64,000 nucleotides of DNA, taken from positions 62,001 to 126,000 of the forward strand of contig NZ_CP022188.1 of assembly GCF_003111665.1 (NCBI RefSeq). Reading direction: 5' to 3'. The translations under genes and the position numbers were made by a program. This stretch comes from Parazoarcus communis (GTDB lineage: Bacteria; Pseudomonadota; Gammaproteobacteria; Burkholderiales; Rhodocyclaceae). This document shows, piece by piece, positions 3,138 through 10,367 of the stretch; the stretch's first letter is position 1, and each line of letters starts with the position of its first letter. The notes beneath the pieces are model-generated. The model was not told where the DNA came from. It saw nothing but the letters and a program-made list of their open reading frames with translations, and did not search any database.

Positions 3138-3409
3138 GAAAAAGGAGCTCTGAAGCGCTGAATGACAAAGCGGAGCAGCCCGCAAGCGTCTGGAACCCAG
3201 TCTCGCACGAAAGCGCGCACCCTCCAATATGCCCCTGATACGGCGCTGCTTGCACTCGCTTGCCTTGGCCGCAAATGAAGATTGGGGTGCTATGGCATTG
3301 GCAACTCCGGTATCTTTGTAACTGATGAGAAAAATTAACTGTTCCGCGCGGCAGGACTTCAGTGGCGACCACCCGCCGCTCAAGCACGTCCGCGGATTTG
3401 GTGACTGAC

Positions 3410-5065
3410 ATGAACCCGACCACCGTACTTACGCATCCCGTCACGCCTGCATGGCAGGCCCTGGCCGCGCATCATGCCGACATTGCCGAAGCCCAACTGC
3501 GCGACCTGTTCAAGGACGATCCGCAGCGCTTCGAGCGCTTCTGCCTGCGTGCTGCTGGCCTGACACTCGACTACTCGAAGAACAGGATCACCACGGACAC
3601 CGTCGGACACCTGCTCGCCCTCGCACGCGAAAGAGGGCTTGAAGCCGCACGCGATGCGATGTTCGCCGGCGCGCACATCAACAACACCGAAGATCGTGCA
3701 GTGCTGCACACCGCCCTGCGCAATCCGACCGGCAGCCGGGTCGAGGTCGATGGCGAGGACGTCATGCCCGCGGTGCTGGCGGTGCGCAAACGGGTAGGAG
3801 ACTTCGCCGAGGCCGTCCGCGACGGAAAATGGACGGGCTACACGGGCGAAGCGGTCACCGACGTGGTCAATATCGGCATCGGCGGCTCCGACCTCGGGCC
3901 GGCCATGGCGTGCGAGGCGCTGGCCGCACATGGCCATCCGCGGCTGCGGATGCACTTCGTGTCGAACGTGGATGGAGACCAGCTGGCACGTGTGCTGGCC
4001 AAGGTCGTTCCGGCGCGCACGCTGTTCATCGTCGCCTCCAAGACCTTCACCACCATCGAGACCATGACCAACGCGGCCAGTGCGCGGGCGTGGTTCCTCG
4101 CCGGCGGCGCCAGCGAGCAGGATATCGCCCGCCACTTCGTTGCGGTATCGACGAACGTCGCCCGGGTGGCTGAATTCGGCATCGCCGCCGACAACATGTT
4201 CGGCTTCTGGGACTGGGTGGGCGGGCGCTACTCGATGTGGTCGGCCGTTGGCCTGCCGGTTGCGCTGTGCGTGGGGCGCGAGGGCTTCGAAGCCATGCTT
4301 GACGGCGCGCATGCAATGGATCGGCACTTTGCCGAGGCCCCGCTCGAAGCCAACATGCCGGTGATTCTTGCCCTGCTCGGCGTGTGGTATCGCAGCTTCT
4401 TCAACGTCGGCAGCCAGTGCATTGCACCCTACGCCCAGGCACTGTCGCGCATGCCGGCCTACCTGCAGCAGCTGGAAATGGAGAGCAACGGCAAGTCGGT
4501 GACGCGGGACGGCCAGCCGGTGGCTTCACCCACCTGTCCGGTCGTATGGGGCGAGCCCGGCACCAACGGGCAGCATGCCTTCTTCCAGCTACTGCATCAG
4601 GGCACCGACCTCATCCCGGTCGATTTCATCGCGCCGCTCAAGGCCAGCCACGGGCTGCCCGATCACCATCGCCTGCTGCTGGCCAACTGCATCGCCCAGA
4701 GCAAGGCGCTGATGGTCGGCAAGACAGCCGCCGAAGTGCGCGCGGAGCTCGCCGCGAGCGGCATGGATGCCGACGCTGTGCAAGCGCTCGTGCCGCACCG
4801 CGTCTTTCCCGGCAACCGCCCCAGCAACACCCTGCTCATGCCCGAGCTGTCACCACGCACGCTCGGCACCCTGATCGCGCTCTACGAGCACAAGGTCTTC
4901 GTGCAGGGCGTCATCTGGGATGTGAACAGCTTTGACCAGTGGGGCGTCGAGCTCGGCAAGCAGATCGCCACCCGCATCGCCGGCGAGCTGGCAGGAGGCC
5001 CGGCGGGCGAACATGACGCTTCCACTCGGGGCCTGATTGCGATGGCACGCGCCAGCGCGTCCTGA
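3410..5065 (+). CDS. pgi: Glucose-6-phosphate isomerase
   Basis: Interconverts glucose 6-phosphate and fructose 6-phosphate. 551 residues from ATG 3410, matching the family (about 549). Visible features are the sugar-phosphate-binding [14 protein letters not shown] stretch, SKTFTTIET, and the signature region [20 protein letters not shown] followed by the C-terminal GVELGKQIA helix. A GTG at 3362 in the same frame would add 16 residues with no family similarity, so it is not chosen. Divergent from glk, with which it forms a glucose-entry module. Confidence 0.95.
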
Positions 5066-5216
5066 GGCAGGGCTAGCAGCCCGGCGATGCACGCAGTGCG
5101 AGTCGCCACCAAGAACGTGCGGCACTCCGGACTGCTCGCATCGCGGCATGACCTGGTAGTCTCTCGGAAATGCATTGCGAATGTCGCAAGCGCCTGCGTT
5201 TCCAGTCACTGCCACG

Positions 5217-8200
5217 ATGTCCAGCACAAACAACTACTACGACAAGAATGCCCCGCAGTTTTTCTCCAGCACGGTGGACGTCGATATGTCCGCCCTGCAT
5301 GAGCGCTTTCTGGCCGGGATCCCGGCAAAGGGCCTGATCCTCGATGCAGGCTGTGGATCGGGCCGGGACAGCCGAGCGTTTCTAGACCGCGGCTACCGGG
5401 TTCGGGCGTTCGACGCCAGTGCTGCGCTATGCGAACTGGCTTCACGGCACATCGGACAGGCGGTCGAGACGCGCGGTTTCGACGATGTCGATGAACTGCT
5501 CTGCTACGACGGCATTTGGGCGTGCGCGAGCCTGCTTCATTTACCCGACGTGGATATGAATGCTGCGCTGGCACGGTTGTGGGCCGCACTCAAGCCCAAT
5601 GGCGTTTTCTACCTGAGCTTCAAGCTCGGAGAGGGTGAGCGGGTACAGGACGGGCGCCACTTTACCGATGCAACCGAGGCAAGGATCCGTGCCTGGATTG
5701 CCCCCTTCGCCGACCTTGCTGCAGCGGAGTGCTGGACAACACAGGATCAGCGCCCTGGACGCACCGAGCAGTGGATCAACGCGCTGATCCGCAAGCGCGG
5801 GCCCGCTGCGACCAAGCTCATTGTCGGTGGCGAATGTAATCACTTCCTGCCTCATCTGTGTGCAGCAATCAGCGGGGCGGACGAGATTGACCTCGCCGTT
5901 GCCTTCATCAAGACAACGGGTCTGCGCCTGCTCTTGCCCGATCTGCGCGCAGCGCTCACCCCTCAGGAAGGTGAGGCGAATGACGGGACGCGCGCGCCGG
6001 TGCAACTGCGCGTTGTGACCAGCGACTATCTTGACGTGACCGATCCCGAGGCACTGCGGTTGCTGATGCTGCTGAAGGAACTCGGCGCACAGATCCGGGT
6101 ATTTGAATCCGCGGGCAGCAGCTTCCACATGAAAGCCTATCTGTTCGCACATCTTCACGGCGGCAATGAGTTACGCGGTACGGCCTTCATCGGGTCGAGC
6201 AATATCAGTCGTCAGGCGCTCAAGGATGGCCTCGAATGGAACTACCGCGTCGACTACCCGGGCGATGACGGTTTCCTTCAGGCACGCTCGCGCTTTGAGG
6301 AGCTGTTTCGGCATCCGCGCACGGTGGAGCTGACTGATTACTGGATCGATGCCTACGAGCGCCGCCGGGTTCAACTTCCGCAGGCAGTCTCGCCCGGCAG
6401 CAACGAGATGGAGCCACCTCCCGTCCCGTCGGCGATTCAGCGTGAAGCGCTGCAGGCGCTGGTGGCGACGCGTATTGAAGGCTACAAGCGTGGCCTGGTC
6501 GTGCTGGCCACAGGGCTCGGCAAGACATGGCTTGCCGCGTTTGATTCCGAGCAGGTGCGAGCCCGTCGCGTGCTGTTCGTCGCGCACCGCGAGGAGATTT
6601 TGCAGCAGGCCGCCGAAACCTTCCTTCGCATCCGGCCGGCGGCACGCGTGGGCTTCTATGCCGGGCAAGTACGGGATCGCGATGTCGACGTCCTCTGTGC
6701 GTCCGTGCAAACGCTTGGGCGAGCAGCGCACCTGGAGGGTTTTGGGCCGCAGCACTTCGACTACATCGTGGTCGACGAATTTCACCACGCGGCTGCGCCG
6801 ACCTATCGCCGTTTGCTTGCGTACTTCGAGCCGCGCTTTCTGCTTGGCCTGACCGCAACGCCGGACCGGACCGATCAGTCGGACATCCTCAGCCTGTGCG
6901 ACGACAACCTCGTATTCACCTGCCAGCTCTTTGCCGGTATCGAGGCTGAACTGCTCGTGCCTTTCCACTATTACGGCATCTACGACGAGTCGGTCGACTA
7001 CACCGGCATTCCGTGGCGCAATGGCCGTTTCGACCCCGAACAGTTGTCCAACAAGCTTGCCACCCTTGCGCGTGCACGACACGCATTGCGCCAGTGGCAG
7101 TCGCGCGCCCAGGCACGCACGCTCGCATTTTGCGTATCGATTCGGCACGCGGAGTACATGGCCGAGCAATTTCAACGCACGGGCATTCCCAGCGCTGCAG
7201 TTTATGCTGGATCAGCAATGAGTCGTGGGGATGCGCTTGAGCAGTTGGCGGAAGGCCGCTTGAAGGTCATTTTCTCGGTCGATCTGTTCAACGAGGGCGT
7301 CGACCTCCCCGCCATCGACACGGTAATGATGCTGCGCCCGACCGAGTCCAAGATCCTGTTCCTGCAGCAGCTTGGTCGCGGGCTGCGCAAAGCGCCGCAC
7401 AAGGACAAGCTCGTCGTGCTCGACTTCATCGGCAACCACCACAGTTTTCTGCACAAGCCCCAGGCACTGCTGGCGGTGGGTACGAGCTATCGGCAACTGG
7501 CGGCCTTCGCACGCAAACTTGAGGACGGCAACCTCGAATTACCGGATGGCTGTTTCATCAACTACGACCTCCAGCTCATCGAGTTTCTGAAGTCGCTCGA
7601 CAGTGACAGCGCAGCCAAGGAATACGAGGCGCTGAAAGGCGCACTCGGCCGCCGCCCCTCCCTGGCGGAGTTCTACCGCGCCGGCGTCAGCGTATCGCGC
7701 ATGCGTCAGCAACACGGCTCGTGGTTCGAACTCGTGCTCGACCAAAAGGATTTGTCGGCTGATGAGGAAAGCGTCGCCCTCGCACAGAAGCGCTTCCTGC
7801 GTGAGGTCGAAAATACGGCGATGACCAAGAGCTACAAGATGGTCTTGCTGGAGGCGCTGCAGGAGCTGAACGGCTGGCTGGAACCCCCGACACTTCATGC
7901 GCTCGCTTCGCAGTCATGGCGGGTGCTTCAGCGGCGGCGCCCCTTGTTGGCAGATCTGCCTGCCACACTCTCCACGGGGACCGACGAGGCACCGGAAACC
8001 TGGTTACGGTACTGGAAGGACAATCCGGTCAATGCCTGGATCGGTGGCAATCGAACGAACGGTGCCGACACATTCTTCCGCGTGCTTGATGACCGGTTCG
8101 TGCGGACCTTCGTCGTACCAGAAGATCGCGCAGCCGCATTCTCTGAGCTGGTGCAGGAGTTGGTCGACTATCGTCTTGCTGCTTACGAGGTGCGAAAGGC

Positions 8201-9086
8201 GACCGCTCCGGAAGGCGGCGGCAATGTCATCCCGCTGCGCAGACCCGCGCCCGAGCGCACCGAACTGCCTTACTTTCCGAATCTGAAAATCGCCTGCGGC
8301 CATTTCAGGACCGGCCGGGCGGATGCCGAAGAACACCGCAGCCTTGGGGCCGGCTACGGCCGCCTGGACCCTGCTCGCCACTTCATCGCCCGGGCGAGCG
8401 GCAACTCGATGGACGGCGGCAAGCACCCGATCCGGGACGGCGACTATCTCCTGCTGGAGCTCATCAGCCCGGGCAGTGCGGGCTCGATCACGGGCGCAAC
8501 GGTTGCCATCGAACGTGGCGACGGCACTGGAGACAACCAGTACCTGCTGCGGGTCGTCACCAAAGGGCCCGATGGGCAATACGTTCTCAAGGCCAACAAC
8601 CCCGCTTACGAAGACATGCCGTCAAGCGATGAGATGCGTACGCTGGCGCGATTCAAGGCCGTCATCGACCCGCTGGAACTCATGCATGGCGAACGCCTGA
8701 TGCGGGAGGAGATTCCCGCACTGTTTGGCGAGGCGTTCAACCCCGGCAACTGGAACAGCGGGCATGTCGTACTTGCCAACAAGAATGCGCACATCCTGCT
8801 GGTGACACTGAACAAACAAGGCAAAGCCGAGGACCACCGCTATCTGGATCACTGGATCGACGAGCACAGCTTCCACTGGCAAAGCCAGAACGCGACGACG
8901 CCAGAGAGCAAGCGGGGCCGCGAGATCATCGAACATCAGAAGAAGGGGTTGGCGCTTCACCTGTTTGTGCGCGAACACAAGCTTGAAGCGGGCAAGGCCG
9001 CACCTTTCACGTATTACGGACGGGTCCGGTACGTCAGCCATACGGGCAGCGCGCCGATGAGTGTGGTGCTTGCAGTGGGGGAGTGA
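5217..9086 (+). CDS. Multidomain protein: methyltransferase + PLD nuclease + SF2 helicase + S24-like/DUF3427-like C-terminus
   Basis: About 1289 residues from ATG 5217. Domains in order: class I SAM-dependent methyltransferase, residues 5-195 (motif [11 protein letters not shown], 43-52); phospholipase-D-like nuclease, about 200-380 (HMK at 304-306, GSSN at 326-329); superfamily 2 helicase, about 405-740 (ATGLGKT 431-437, DEFH 520-523, TAT 546-548, QQLGRGLR 717-724); an S24/LexA-like fold near 1020-1160 (GNSM, Ser 1064); and a C-terminal DUF3427-like end. PLD-helicase-DUF3427 proteins are known; their role is largely inferred and some occur with phage-defence genes. The methyltransferase lacks DPPY/NPPY DNA-methylase motifs and resembles small-molecule types. 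Alternative starts are ATG 5181 and TTG 5175. It stands alone between housekeeping genes. Confidence 0.85.
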
Positions 9087-9273: not shown

Positions 9274-9350
9274 TGGTCGGGGAAAGAGGATTCGAACCTC
9301 CGGCCCCTGCGTCCCGAACGCAGTGCTCTACCAGGCTGAGCTATTCCCCG
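9274..9350 (-). tRNA. tRNA-Pro (anticodon CGG)
   Basis: 77-nt cloverleaf with encoded CCA (plus-strand TGG at 9274-9276). Acceptor stem CGGGGAA/TTCCCCG, D-arm GCTC...GAGC with AGCCTGGTA loop, anticodon stem CTGCG/CGCAG with loop TTCGGGA giving CGG, T-arm GGAGG-TTCGAAT-CCTCT. It lies 48 bases downstream of ispB on the same strand and could be co-transcribed with it. Confidence 0.97.
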
Positions 9351-9398: not shown

Positions 9399-10367
9399 TC
9401 AGTAATTTCTCGCAACTGCAAAGTCCGATAATTGTAGCAACGCATCCTTGAAAATGGAAGGGGAAAGTGTAGAAATTGCGTCGATTGCACGATCAGCTTC
9501 TTCCCGCGCATAGCGCCGTGCCTCGTCCAGCGCTTTGGTGCTCTGAATGGCGGCGAGTACGGCCGCAAAATCGTCGCGTCCGCCGTTCTCGATGGCGCCT
9601 CGTACCAGGGCGGCCTGCTCGGGCGTACCGTGCTGCATGACATGGATCAGCGGCAGGGTGGGCTTGCCTTCGGCGAGGTCGTCGCCGAGGTGCTTGCCGG
9701 TTTCCGCTTCGTCAGCTGAGTAGTCGAGCACGTCGTCGATGATCTGGAAAGCCGTGCCGAGATGCATGCCGAAGGCTGCGAGACGCGTCTCGGTGGCTTC
9801 ATCCGCACCGGCGAGGATGCCGCCAAGCCGGGCGGCCGCTTCGAAGAGCTTGGCCGTCTTGTAGCGGATGACGCGCAGGTAGTCGTCGATTTCGACGTCG
9901 GCATCATGGCAGTTGAGCAACTGCAGCACTTCGCCTTCGGCGATGACGTTGGTTGCATCCGACAACACGTCCATCACCCGCATGTTGTTGACGCTCACCA
10001 TCATCTGAAAGGCGCGCGAGTAGAGGAAGTCGCCCACCAGAACCGAAGCGGCGTTGCCGAACAGGGCGTTGGCGGTCTTGTTGCCGCGCCGCAGTTCGGA
10101 TTCGTCGACCACGTCATCGTGCAGCAGGGTGGCGGTATGGATGAACTCCACCACCGCAGCCAGCTCGTGATGATGTGTGCCGCGGTAGCCCATCGCGCCG
10201 GCCGCAAACAGGACGAGCGCGGGGCGCAGGCGCTTGCCACCGCTGTGAATAATGTATTCCGCGACCTGCCGGATCAGAACCACATCGGAGTGAAGTCGCT
10301 GTCGGATGACGGCATCCACCGCCTGCATATCGGCGGCAATAGGTGCAAATAGCTGCTGGGCGGACAA
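9399..10367 (-). CDS. ispB: Octaprenyl (polyprenyl) diphosphate synthase
   Basis: Elongates farnesyl diphosphate with isopentenyl units to make the ubiquinone side chain. 322 residues. First aspartate-rich motif DDVVD at 84-88, second DDVLD at 211-215, plus the GGKRLRP substrate-binding stretch at 43-49, all intact. The family N-terminus (LFAPIAADMQAVD) begins right after a TTG codon at 10367; no in-frame ATG fits, so a TTG start is chosen. Chain length cannot be fixed from sequence, but the small-residue context before the first motif suits a long-chain enzyme. Confidence 0.93.
   Translation of the reverse strand: MSAQQLFAPIAADMQAVDAVIRQRLHSDVVLIRQVAEYIIHSGGKRLRPALVLFAAGAMGYRGTHHHELAAVVEFIHTATLLHDDVVDESELRRGNKTANALFGNAASVLVGDFLYSRAFQMMVSVNNMRVMDVLSDATNVIAEGEVLQLLNCHDADVEIDDYLRVIRYKTAKLFEAAARLGGILAGADEATETRLAAFGMHLGTAFQIIDDVLDYSADEAETGKHLGDDLAEGKPTLPLIHVMQHGTPEQAALVRGAIENGGRDDFAAVLAAIQSTKALDEARRYAREEADRAIDAISTLSPSIFKDALLQLSDFAVARNY

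Follow-up and report, generated by a model that had tools for sequence, protein, structure and literature searches.

The window analysed here is a stretch of 64,000 nucleotides from Parazoarcus communis (contig NZ_CP022188.1, positions 62,001 to 126,000). On its forward strand, a single ATG-to-stop frame at 5217-9086 encodes a protein of 1289 amino acids (aa) that joins a methyltransferase (MTase) to a nuclease related to the restriction enzyme SauUSI. A mechanical list of open reading frames (ORFs) places the start 14 codons upstream, at a TTG at 5175; the starts of relatives match the ATG at 5217 instead. Pfam searches identify an N-terminal class I MTase, then PLD nuclease and SF2 helicase domains, then an S24 domain of the UmuD/LexA-like type, and at the C terminus the second half of DUF3427; the chain divides as follows:

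5217..5807, + strand: class I S-adenosylmethionine (SAM)-dependent MTase domain (residues 1-197; Methyltransf_25 and RPA2492 matches)
5808..6401, + strand: PLD-family nuclease domain (residues 198-395; PLDc_2 and SauUSI 7clg matches)
6402..7451, + strand: SF2 helicase/translocase core (residues 396-745; ResIII and Helicase_C, RadD and SauUSI matches)
7452..8246, + strand: coupler-like linker region (residues 746-1010; without a Pfam domain)
8247..8660, + strand: UmuD/LexA-like S24 domain (residues 1011-1148; Peptidase_S24, profile alignment with UmuD 8gmt)
8661..9086, + strand: SRA-fold target recognition domain and stop codon (residues 1149-1289; DUF3427, SauUSI alignment, Foldseek)

The individual Pfam matches are Methyltransf_25 (residues 41-129, E 4e-13), PLDc_2 (260-351, 2e-6), ResIII (406-551, 5e-35), Helicase_C (628-724, 1e-11), Peptidase_S24 (1024-1138, 2e-6) and DUF3427 (1162-1275, 2e-18, covering the second half of the model). 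Ten of 13 families lie above Pfam's own cut-offs; Methyltransf_PK, TehB and DUF7883 lie below. Key residues were followed in an alignment of 121 rows, comprising the window protein and its 120 best homologues, chosen for closeness. All 121 rows retain D43, G45, C46, G47 and S105-L-L-H108 of the MTase, H304 and K306 (HxK) and GSSN 326-329 of the PLD domain, and K436 and T437 (Walker), DEFH 520-523, and Q717 and R721 (motif VI) of the helicase. The Pfam label, read off the list, is absent for PLD in about 9 and for S24 in about 4 of the 120 homologues; the key residues still align in all of them. An earlier note, made from the letters of this DNA alone, had described an MTase, a PLD nuclease and an SF2 helicase with intact motifs in one 1289-residue chain, and the Pfam matches and the alignment bear this out.

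The SauUSI-like core, the SRA domain and the S24 domain

The best solved sequence relative of the window protein is SauUSI (7clg), with a phmmer score of 312 bits over residues 187-845. The alignment stops at window residue 845 and SauUSI residue 670; it takes in only SauUSI 618-670 of a coupler that PMC7913695 places at residues 618-805. PLD nuclease, SF2 ATPase, coupler and SRA domain follow in the same order in both proteins, and both have the HxK motif. The Glu of HxKx4E, the SauUSI nuclease motif according to PMC7913695, is Ala in the window protein, which also carries an MTase and an S24 domain, both absent from SauUSI. Because the MTase is fused, the window protein is a SauUSI-like variant and not SauUSI itself. 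It is matched by the PADLOC family mREase_IV (type IV methyl-directed restriction enzyme) with 390 bits, and this match and the SauUSI relationship uphold, at the level of the family, the defence role that the earlier note had suggested. Four SauUSI-like PLD-SF2-DUF3427 genes without an adjacent MTase also occur in the window's family (G003:C52, G010:C93, G013:C105 and G020:C220; loci L061, L057, L062 and L012), 36-37% identical over the PLD-SF2 part.

The C-terminal region aligns with SauUSI 812-918 in sequence (E 2e-5). A model of this region, predicted from 16 aligned relatives, has a mean predicted local distance difference test score (pLDDT) of 63, with 10-residue means of 54-90 in the SRA half (the last 140 residues) and 29-64 in the S24 half. 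Foldseek returns SauUSI 7clg first (E 9e-6) and then, at weaker E, the SRA structures of the plant proteins SUVH6 and KRYPTONITE, of MspJI and of UHRF1. The DUF3427 of the window protein is an SRA domain, probably a reader of modified bases; the "DUF3427-like" part of the earlier note thus stands as a Pfam match, and its label is corrected to SRA.

In SauUSI, the target recognition domain is an SRA domain with a base pocket of Asp858, Trp868 and Tyr831, as given in PMC7913695. The pocket Asp (1211 in the window protein) and Trp (1221) are kept in 23 of 23 aligned DUF3427 rows. At the position of Tyr831, all 16 MTase-linked DUF3427 proteins have His (His1183 in the window protein), whereas all six without an adjacent MTase have Val or Ile, one of the six (L057 in G010) having a broken MTase-like frame about 5 kb off. 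Of the 121 close rows, 119 have His at this position and 2 have Gln. Since the linked proteins probably share ancestry, the 16 His residues count as a lineage mark and not as 16 independent observations, and the substitution probably arose in one lineage rather than by repeated evolution. The reader appears to keep its base pocket, and its specificity has probably changed relative to SauUSI.

The S24 profile aligns weakly with UmuD 8gmt (E 0.004) over a stretch that spans the Cys-Gly cleavage site and the nucleophile Ser, which we take to be Cys24-Gly25 and Ser60 in UmuD. The window protein has Cys1027-Gly1028 and Ser1064 at these positions, as do all 121 rows. It differs from LexA and UmuD at the position of the catalytic Lys, which reads Arg1112 when set by eye according to its distance to the Asn that comes next. 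Because this position is Arg in 121 of 121 rows, self-cleavage is doubtful; a sensing or relay role may be considered for the domain. S24 is an add-on: nucleases with and without it can be paired (L073 and L065, 63% identical; L122 and L096, 56%), and it is variably present within three nuclease scaffolds, those of L073 versus L065, L122 versus L096 and L113 versus L081.

A methyltransferase linked to exchangeable nucleases

Motif I of the MTase domain reads DAGCGSG and is intact in 89 of 89 MTases of its clade. The motif IV region reads [10 protein letters not shown], with neither the DPPY nor the PC motif of DNA MTases. The best solved relative is the uncharacterised RPA2492 (3e23, 94 bits), and other solved relatives in the profile search include the small-molecule enzymes TehB and the glycine and phosphoethanolamine MTases.

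A protein search scored 7997 sequences, 5210 of them relatives at E <= 1e-10. The MTase is fused in 120 of the 120 best homologues listed, which come from several named Proteobacteria, so the fusion is not the unusual feature that the earlier note had taken it for. In the MTase tree, called for in the same note, the fused rows stand nearly together, and the sister form is a separate MTase gene directly beside the nuclease. One change parts fused from separate PLD rows; in comparison with all rows the fused group takes three changes, as L104 and L111 fall among its rows.

Partners were surveyed at 80 MTase loci, the best 80 of 200 confirmed relatives in a species-genome scan seeded with seven nuclease-linked MTases; a partner was called when a representative nuclease matched within 4.5 kb of the MTase. 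A nuclease is fused or nearby in 65 of the 80 loci, in every case within 1.5 kb, a count that includes L092 and L107 (opposite strand), L071 (broken frame) and L074 (fragment). The partners are PLD-SF2 in 41 loci (18 fused, 23 separate), HNH in 19 (one of them fused, L142), SF2b in four and a phosphorothioate-type HNH in one (L104). The representative HNH, SF2b and phosphorothioate-type nucleases came from neighbours at the same loci, and the outgroup control covers only these kinds: within 1.5 kb flanks, one of 25 outgroup MTase loci has a nuclease (L036, HNH). L036 pairs with a clade member in the tree, and moving it into the clade leaves 0 of 24. Six of the 25 outgroup rows lie on the clade's side of the MTase tree (L036 and five on one long branch); in the tree described below that includes a second clade, the 24 rows without L036 form one clade.

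The nuclease part is exchanged. For the rows whose partner is known, the best MTase tree implies that the broad partner type changed 19 times, with 44 of 111 inner branches weak. In a supported trio, the close MTases of L002, L065 and L049 stand with PLD-SF2-S24, HNH and HNH-S24 nucleases, respectively. On a Pseudoalteromonas plasmid a PLD-SF2-S24 gene, with no DUF3427 found in it, begins next to the end of the MTase gene, and the same junction occurs in G201. The gene after the MTase encodes an HNH-S24 protein in G181 and a different SF2 protein with a truncated S24 in G254; an HNH gene precedes the MTase in G296 and G316. Among 11 plasmid regions inspected through their NCBI annotation, an HNH endonuclease gene is next to the MTase in four, an HNH gene lies on the opposite strand at a distance of about 1.1 kb in two, a DNA/RNA non-specific endonuclease lies upstream in one, and the next gene is not a nuclease in four, one of which has a Dnd-associated MTase nearby and another a dptFG/dnd cluster. 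An HNH partner was considered as a modified-base reader and rejected: its model (mean pLDDT 79) has no Foldseek match at E <= 0.001, and the best-ranking structures, starting at E 0.006, comprise Cas9 chains and HNH domains, with no reader fold.

The linkage is also seen from the side of S24. An S24 query found six of 299 genomes in a phylum sample and seven strong matches in a 369-genome class sample, 11 different genomes in total; four weak class-sample matches (G499, G542, G572 and G602; E 1e-4 to 9e-4) and a second weak piece of G254, whose main S24 frame contains stops, were left out. An MTase is fused or adjacent in 10 of the 11, convergent on the opposite strand in G418. In the eleventh, G627, the MTase and PLD half lie on one contig and the rest on another, at a contig break. 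Three of the 11 (G055, G418 and G472) use an MTase from a different clade, 27-31% identical; thus an MTase in general, and not one particular gene, is kept with S24.

At E <= 1e-25 this second clade is present in 12 of the 369 genomes. A tree built from the two clades together with the 24 outgroup rows gives it a support of 100/100 and the outgroup 96/83. Its members adjoin PLD-SF2 (L256 and L257; convergent in L264), HNH (L261) or SF2b (L263) genes, or are fused to HNH (L258, L260 and L265). L259 and L262 also carry a fused region, which in L262 has no recognised domain, and L266 and L267 have none of the representative nucleases. Single-chain MTase-HNH proteins are found in both MTase clades (L142:6986-8164, L258:1501-3183, L260:1489-3171 and L265:346-2076) and are a compact counterpart of the window protein.

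Interpretation and competing explanations

We propose, at a probability of about 45%, that the window protein is a SauUSI-kind restriction nuclease, driven by ATP and dependent on modification (type IV-like), which carries a safety SAM-dependent MTase of its own in the same chain. The SRA domain would flip a modified base in incoming DNA, and the coupler and the inserted S24 module would pass the signal to the SF2 motor. The motor would then translocate, and the PLD domains of a dimer would shred the DNA. DNA as the target, the dimer, translocation and an action against phages or plasmids are all suggested by homology to SauUSI. The MTase would be the safety half, methylating a substrate shared across the family with the effect that host DNA is neither read nor cut; this protective role, and what the MTase methylates, are the least certain parts of the proposal. 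The whole would be a nuclease/MTase unit with an exchangeable nuclease part (PLD-SF2, HNH or SF2b). A role in defence as such is predicted, with good support from homology and from the patchiness of the gene.

The unit resembles a restriction-modification (R-M) system because R-M pairs also show such linkage and partner exchange; the linked MTase and nuclease are shared with them (65/80 loci versus 0/24 outgroup loci, or 1/25 with L036), whereas the catalytic motif and recognition domain of a DNA MTase are absent from the window-type MTase (0/89). In the usual description, type IV restriction enzymes cut modified DNA and have no partner MTase. Type ISP enzymes (LlaGI/LlaBIII) and Type IIG enzymes, like the window protein, combine a nuclease and an MTase, and in ISP also an SF2 motor, in a single chain, and the SF2 part matches single-chain R-M enzymes weakly (23-26 bits). 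Their MTases, however, methylate N6 of adenine in DNA and have both a recognition domain and a DPPY-type motif; the window MTase lacks such a motif and comes first in the chain. The only PADLOC family that matches the window MTase domain is Mad2 of MADS (mads_2; 49 bits, positions 265-400 of 492), which also scores 39-70 bits on the five second-clade MTases scanned. MADS, named in PMC12904381 and PMC11842806, is a multi-gene system; the genes adjoining the window gene in the ORF list are pgi and a polyprenyl synthase. A literature search, made without supplementary files and mostly without subscription journals, found neither the MTase fusion nor the partner exchange described.

Several observations weigh against a safety MTase acting on DNA. 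The motif IV of DNA MTases ([DNS]PP[YFW] or PC[QP]) is found in 0 of 89 clade MTases, and a DNA MTase of the standard type is rejected on this ground. The clade MTases are about 195 aa long, have no extra or recognition domain, and are acidic in every partner group (mean isoelectric point 5.1-5.6 by group, 5.5 in the outgroup). Residues outside the SAM site (e.g. Y8, W101, H108, K136, R147, R179 and W186) are invariant over 22 rows with differing partners; together with the small size, the missing recognition domain and the acidity, this would be odd for a sequence-specific DNA MTase. SauUSI functions without an MTase, and other DUF3427 nucleases without an adjacent MTase exist. No nuclease match was found at 15 of the 80 loci. 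On six viral-collection contigs of 63.9-257.5 kb (L170-L173, L175 and L176) the MTase (46% identical in L170, 37-39% in the others) has no representative nuclease in the fetched flanks, and on a seventh (L174) there is only a weak (20%) helicase match beside it. The MTases of the first six contigs could possibly serve phage counter-defence or the modification of phage DNA.

Since residues outside the SAM site stay invariant whatever the nuclease partner, and motif I is intact, we read the MTase as an active enzyme with one common substrate, independent of the nuclease's DNA site. This observation also fits an MTase that regulates the nuclease and leaves no mark on DNA, by methylating either a nucleotide-like small molecule or a protein, perhaps the nuclease or S24 itself, or by sensing SAM, in the manner of a toxin with an enzymatic antitoxin or of a licensing switch. 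The lack of DNA-MTase motifs, the acidic chain without a recognition domain, the small-molecule MTases (TehB, glycine, phosphoethanolamine) found besides the best match RPA2492, and the linkage of S24 to an MTase in 11 of 11 genomes, counting the split G627, all point the same way. S24 would not be the only target, since the MTases also pair with nucleases that lack it (e.g. L081, L103, L116 and HNH-only loci), and a pure SAM sensor would have no need to conserve W101, H108, K136, R147 and R179. We regard such a regulator as possible, though doubtful. A link to the SOS response, in which S24 senses RecA filaments or auto-cleaves like UmuD and LexA to switch the nuclease, with the MTase secondary, would account for the UmuD profile match, for Cys1027-Gly1028 and Ser1064 in all 121 rows, and for the presence or absence of S24 within three different scaffolds. 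We consider it improbable: the position of the general-base Lys, set by eye, is Arg throughout, which makes auto-cleavage doubtful, the UmuD match is weak (E 0.004), and the S24 half of the model is of low confidence.

The MTase might instead mark the target, by altering incoming DNA, or unusual bases in it, into a form that its own chain's SRA domain can recognise. That an MTase shares a polypeptide with a modified-base reader is consistent with this idea, as is the pocket residue (His in 16/16 linked proteins, which probably share ancestry, versus Val or Ile in 6/6 unlinked ones and Tyr in SauUSI). However, the partners of the same MTase clade include nucleases without a detected DUF3427 (PLD-SF2-S24 alone, HNH, SF2b), and host DNA would be marked too unless the enzyme were restrained; we think it unlikely that the MTase works in this way. 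A DNA repair or housekeeping enzyme, not directed against foreign DNA, is suggested by matches of the SF2 core to RadD and XPB-type repair helicases, and is the least probable of these explanations, a very unlikely one: the gene is patchy within one genus and sits at different loci, members occur on plasmids and on a viral-collection contig, broken copies exist (the G013 pieces and L003), and the closest characterised relative is a restriction enzyme.

Beyond the proposal of a SauUSI-like nuclease with its own safety MTase, we tentatively entertain a broader possibility, namely an undescribed kind of R-M in which small MTases not of the DNA type and lacking a recognition domain, from two distant clades, form obligate units with interchangeable nucleases, some of them type IV-like. 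The MTase would make or remove one common chemical feature that all the nucleases check, and the UmuD-like S24 would be a conserved coupler for control in the members that bear it. For a specialist, the surprise is the exchangeable MTase-nuclease unit and not the fusion itself. If true, there would be a second restriction design in which the control of self and non-self rests on a methylation. This concerns many genes whose annotation says no more than "DUF3427 domain-containing protein" or "class I SAM-dependent methyltransferase"; new tools for reading DNA modifications could also follow.

The genomic slot and phosphorothioate-related neighbours

The fused gene lies in a variable slot, bounded and flanked as follows:

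3362..5065, + strand: ORF that we take to be pgi (glucose-6-phosphate isomerase), one edge of the slot (ORF list; start not refined)
9274..9350, - strand: tRNA-Pro(cgg), the other edge of the slot (ARAGORN)
9399..10367, - strand: presumably an ispB-like polyprenyl diphosphate synthase gene, a conserved flank (ORF list; present in relatives)

Among 41 genomes, the window's own and 40 relatives, five carry the fused family: G000 (the window's own), G001 and G004 whole, G010 as a contig-end fragment and G013 as scattered pieces. Within the genus, pgi on one side and tRNA-Pro(cgg)-ispB on the other flank the gene in G000 and G001; the copy in G004 (71%) stands on a different contig from its tRNA-Pro(cgg), the slot of G002 is filled by about 8.8 kb of other DNA, and G003 has no full-length match. 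The tRNA-Pro(cgg) is beside ispB in 10 of 12 loci examined, the window's own genome included; of the two exceptions, L155 has no tRNA-Pro beside ispB and L156 is a weak paralogue. The fused gene is thus patchy, and its position is accessory, as the earlier note had supposed. The findings which that note named as speaking against its view, a failure of profile searches to find the MTase or PLD domain and a core housekeeping position, did not turn up. A defence island at the slot was rejected on the basis of 0 PADLOC matches in 10 ORFs, picked by size from 44 in G002, G003 and G004, several of which overlap and may not be genes; the slot listings of G003 and G004 did not reach pgi.

Some relatives stand close to phosphorothioate systems. 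In L104 (7001-8511) the clade MTase gene overlaps a gene for a phosphorothioate-DNA restriction enzyme (NF045808, 320 bits), and weaker HNH relatives (43-52 bits, below the cut-off) lie 6-91 bases upstream of the fused gene in L077, L079 and L082. In L111 (3198-6353) the clade MTase is fused, in one 1051-aa frame, to a TIGR04096 protein (569 bits), a DNA phosphorothioation-associated putative methyltransferase, and the frame adjoins an AAA-ATPase/PD-(D/E)XK gene. A frameshifted MTase lies about 0.7 kb from dptF/dptG, near a dnd cluster, on a Pseudoalteromonas shioyasakiensis megaplasmid (L247), and a distant MTase (33%) about 1 kb from a gene for a phosphorothioation-associated putative methyltransferase on the Methylibium petroleiphilum plasmid RPME01 (L243, 8938-13347). 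In L066 (7720-10334) a DGQHR gene (DndB/DpdB-like, 40 bits, below the cut-off) follows a clade MTase without a nuclease match. DndC scored above the cut-off in none of 17 genomes tested, among them the window's and excluding those of L104 and L111 (below the cut-off: 115 bits in G004, 21 bits in G316); phosphorothioate as the substrate of the whole family is rejected on this count. Phosphorothioate-related proteins accompany the clade MTase in L104 and L111, without being its partner in general.

Elsewhere in the window's genome a second MTase stands alone (G000:C1:3929009-3929455, L060; 36% identical); its neighbourhood gave no match to PLD, helicase, S24 or DUF3427. Genes for CoiA-family competence proteins lie near the MTase on an Acinetobacter plasmid (L248:6097-7110) and a Variovorax plasmid (L252:9093-9884). 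Finally, the viral-collection contig L169 (6001-8141) carries an MTase together with an HNH-S24 gene, and the unit may therefore travel on proviruses.

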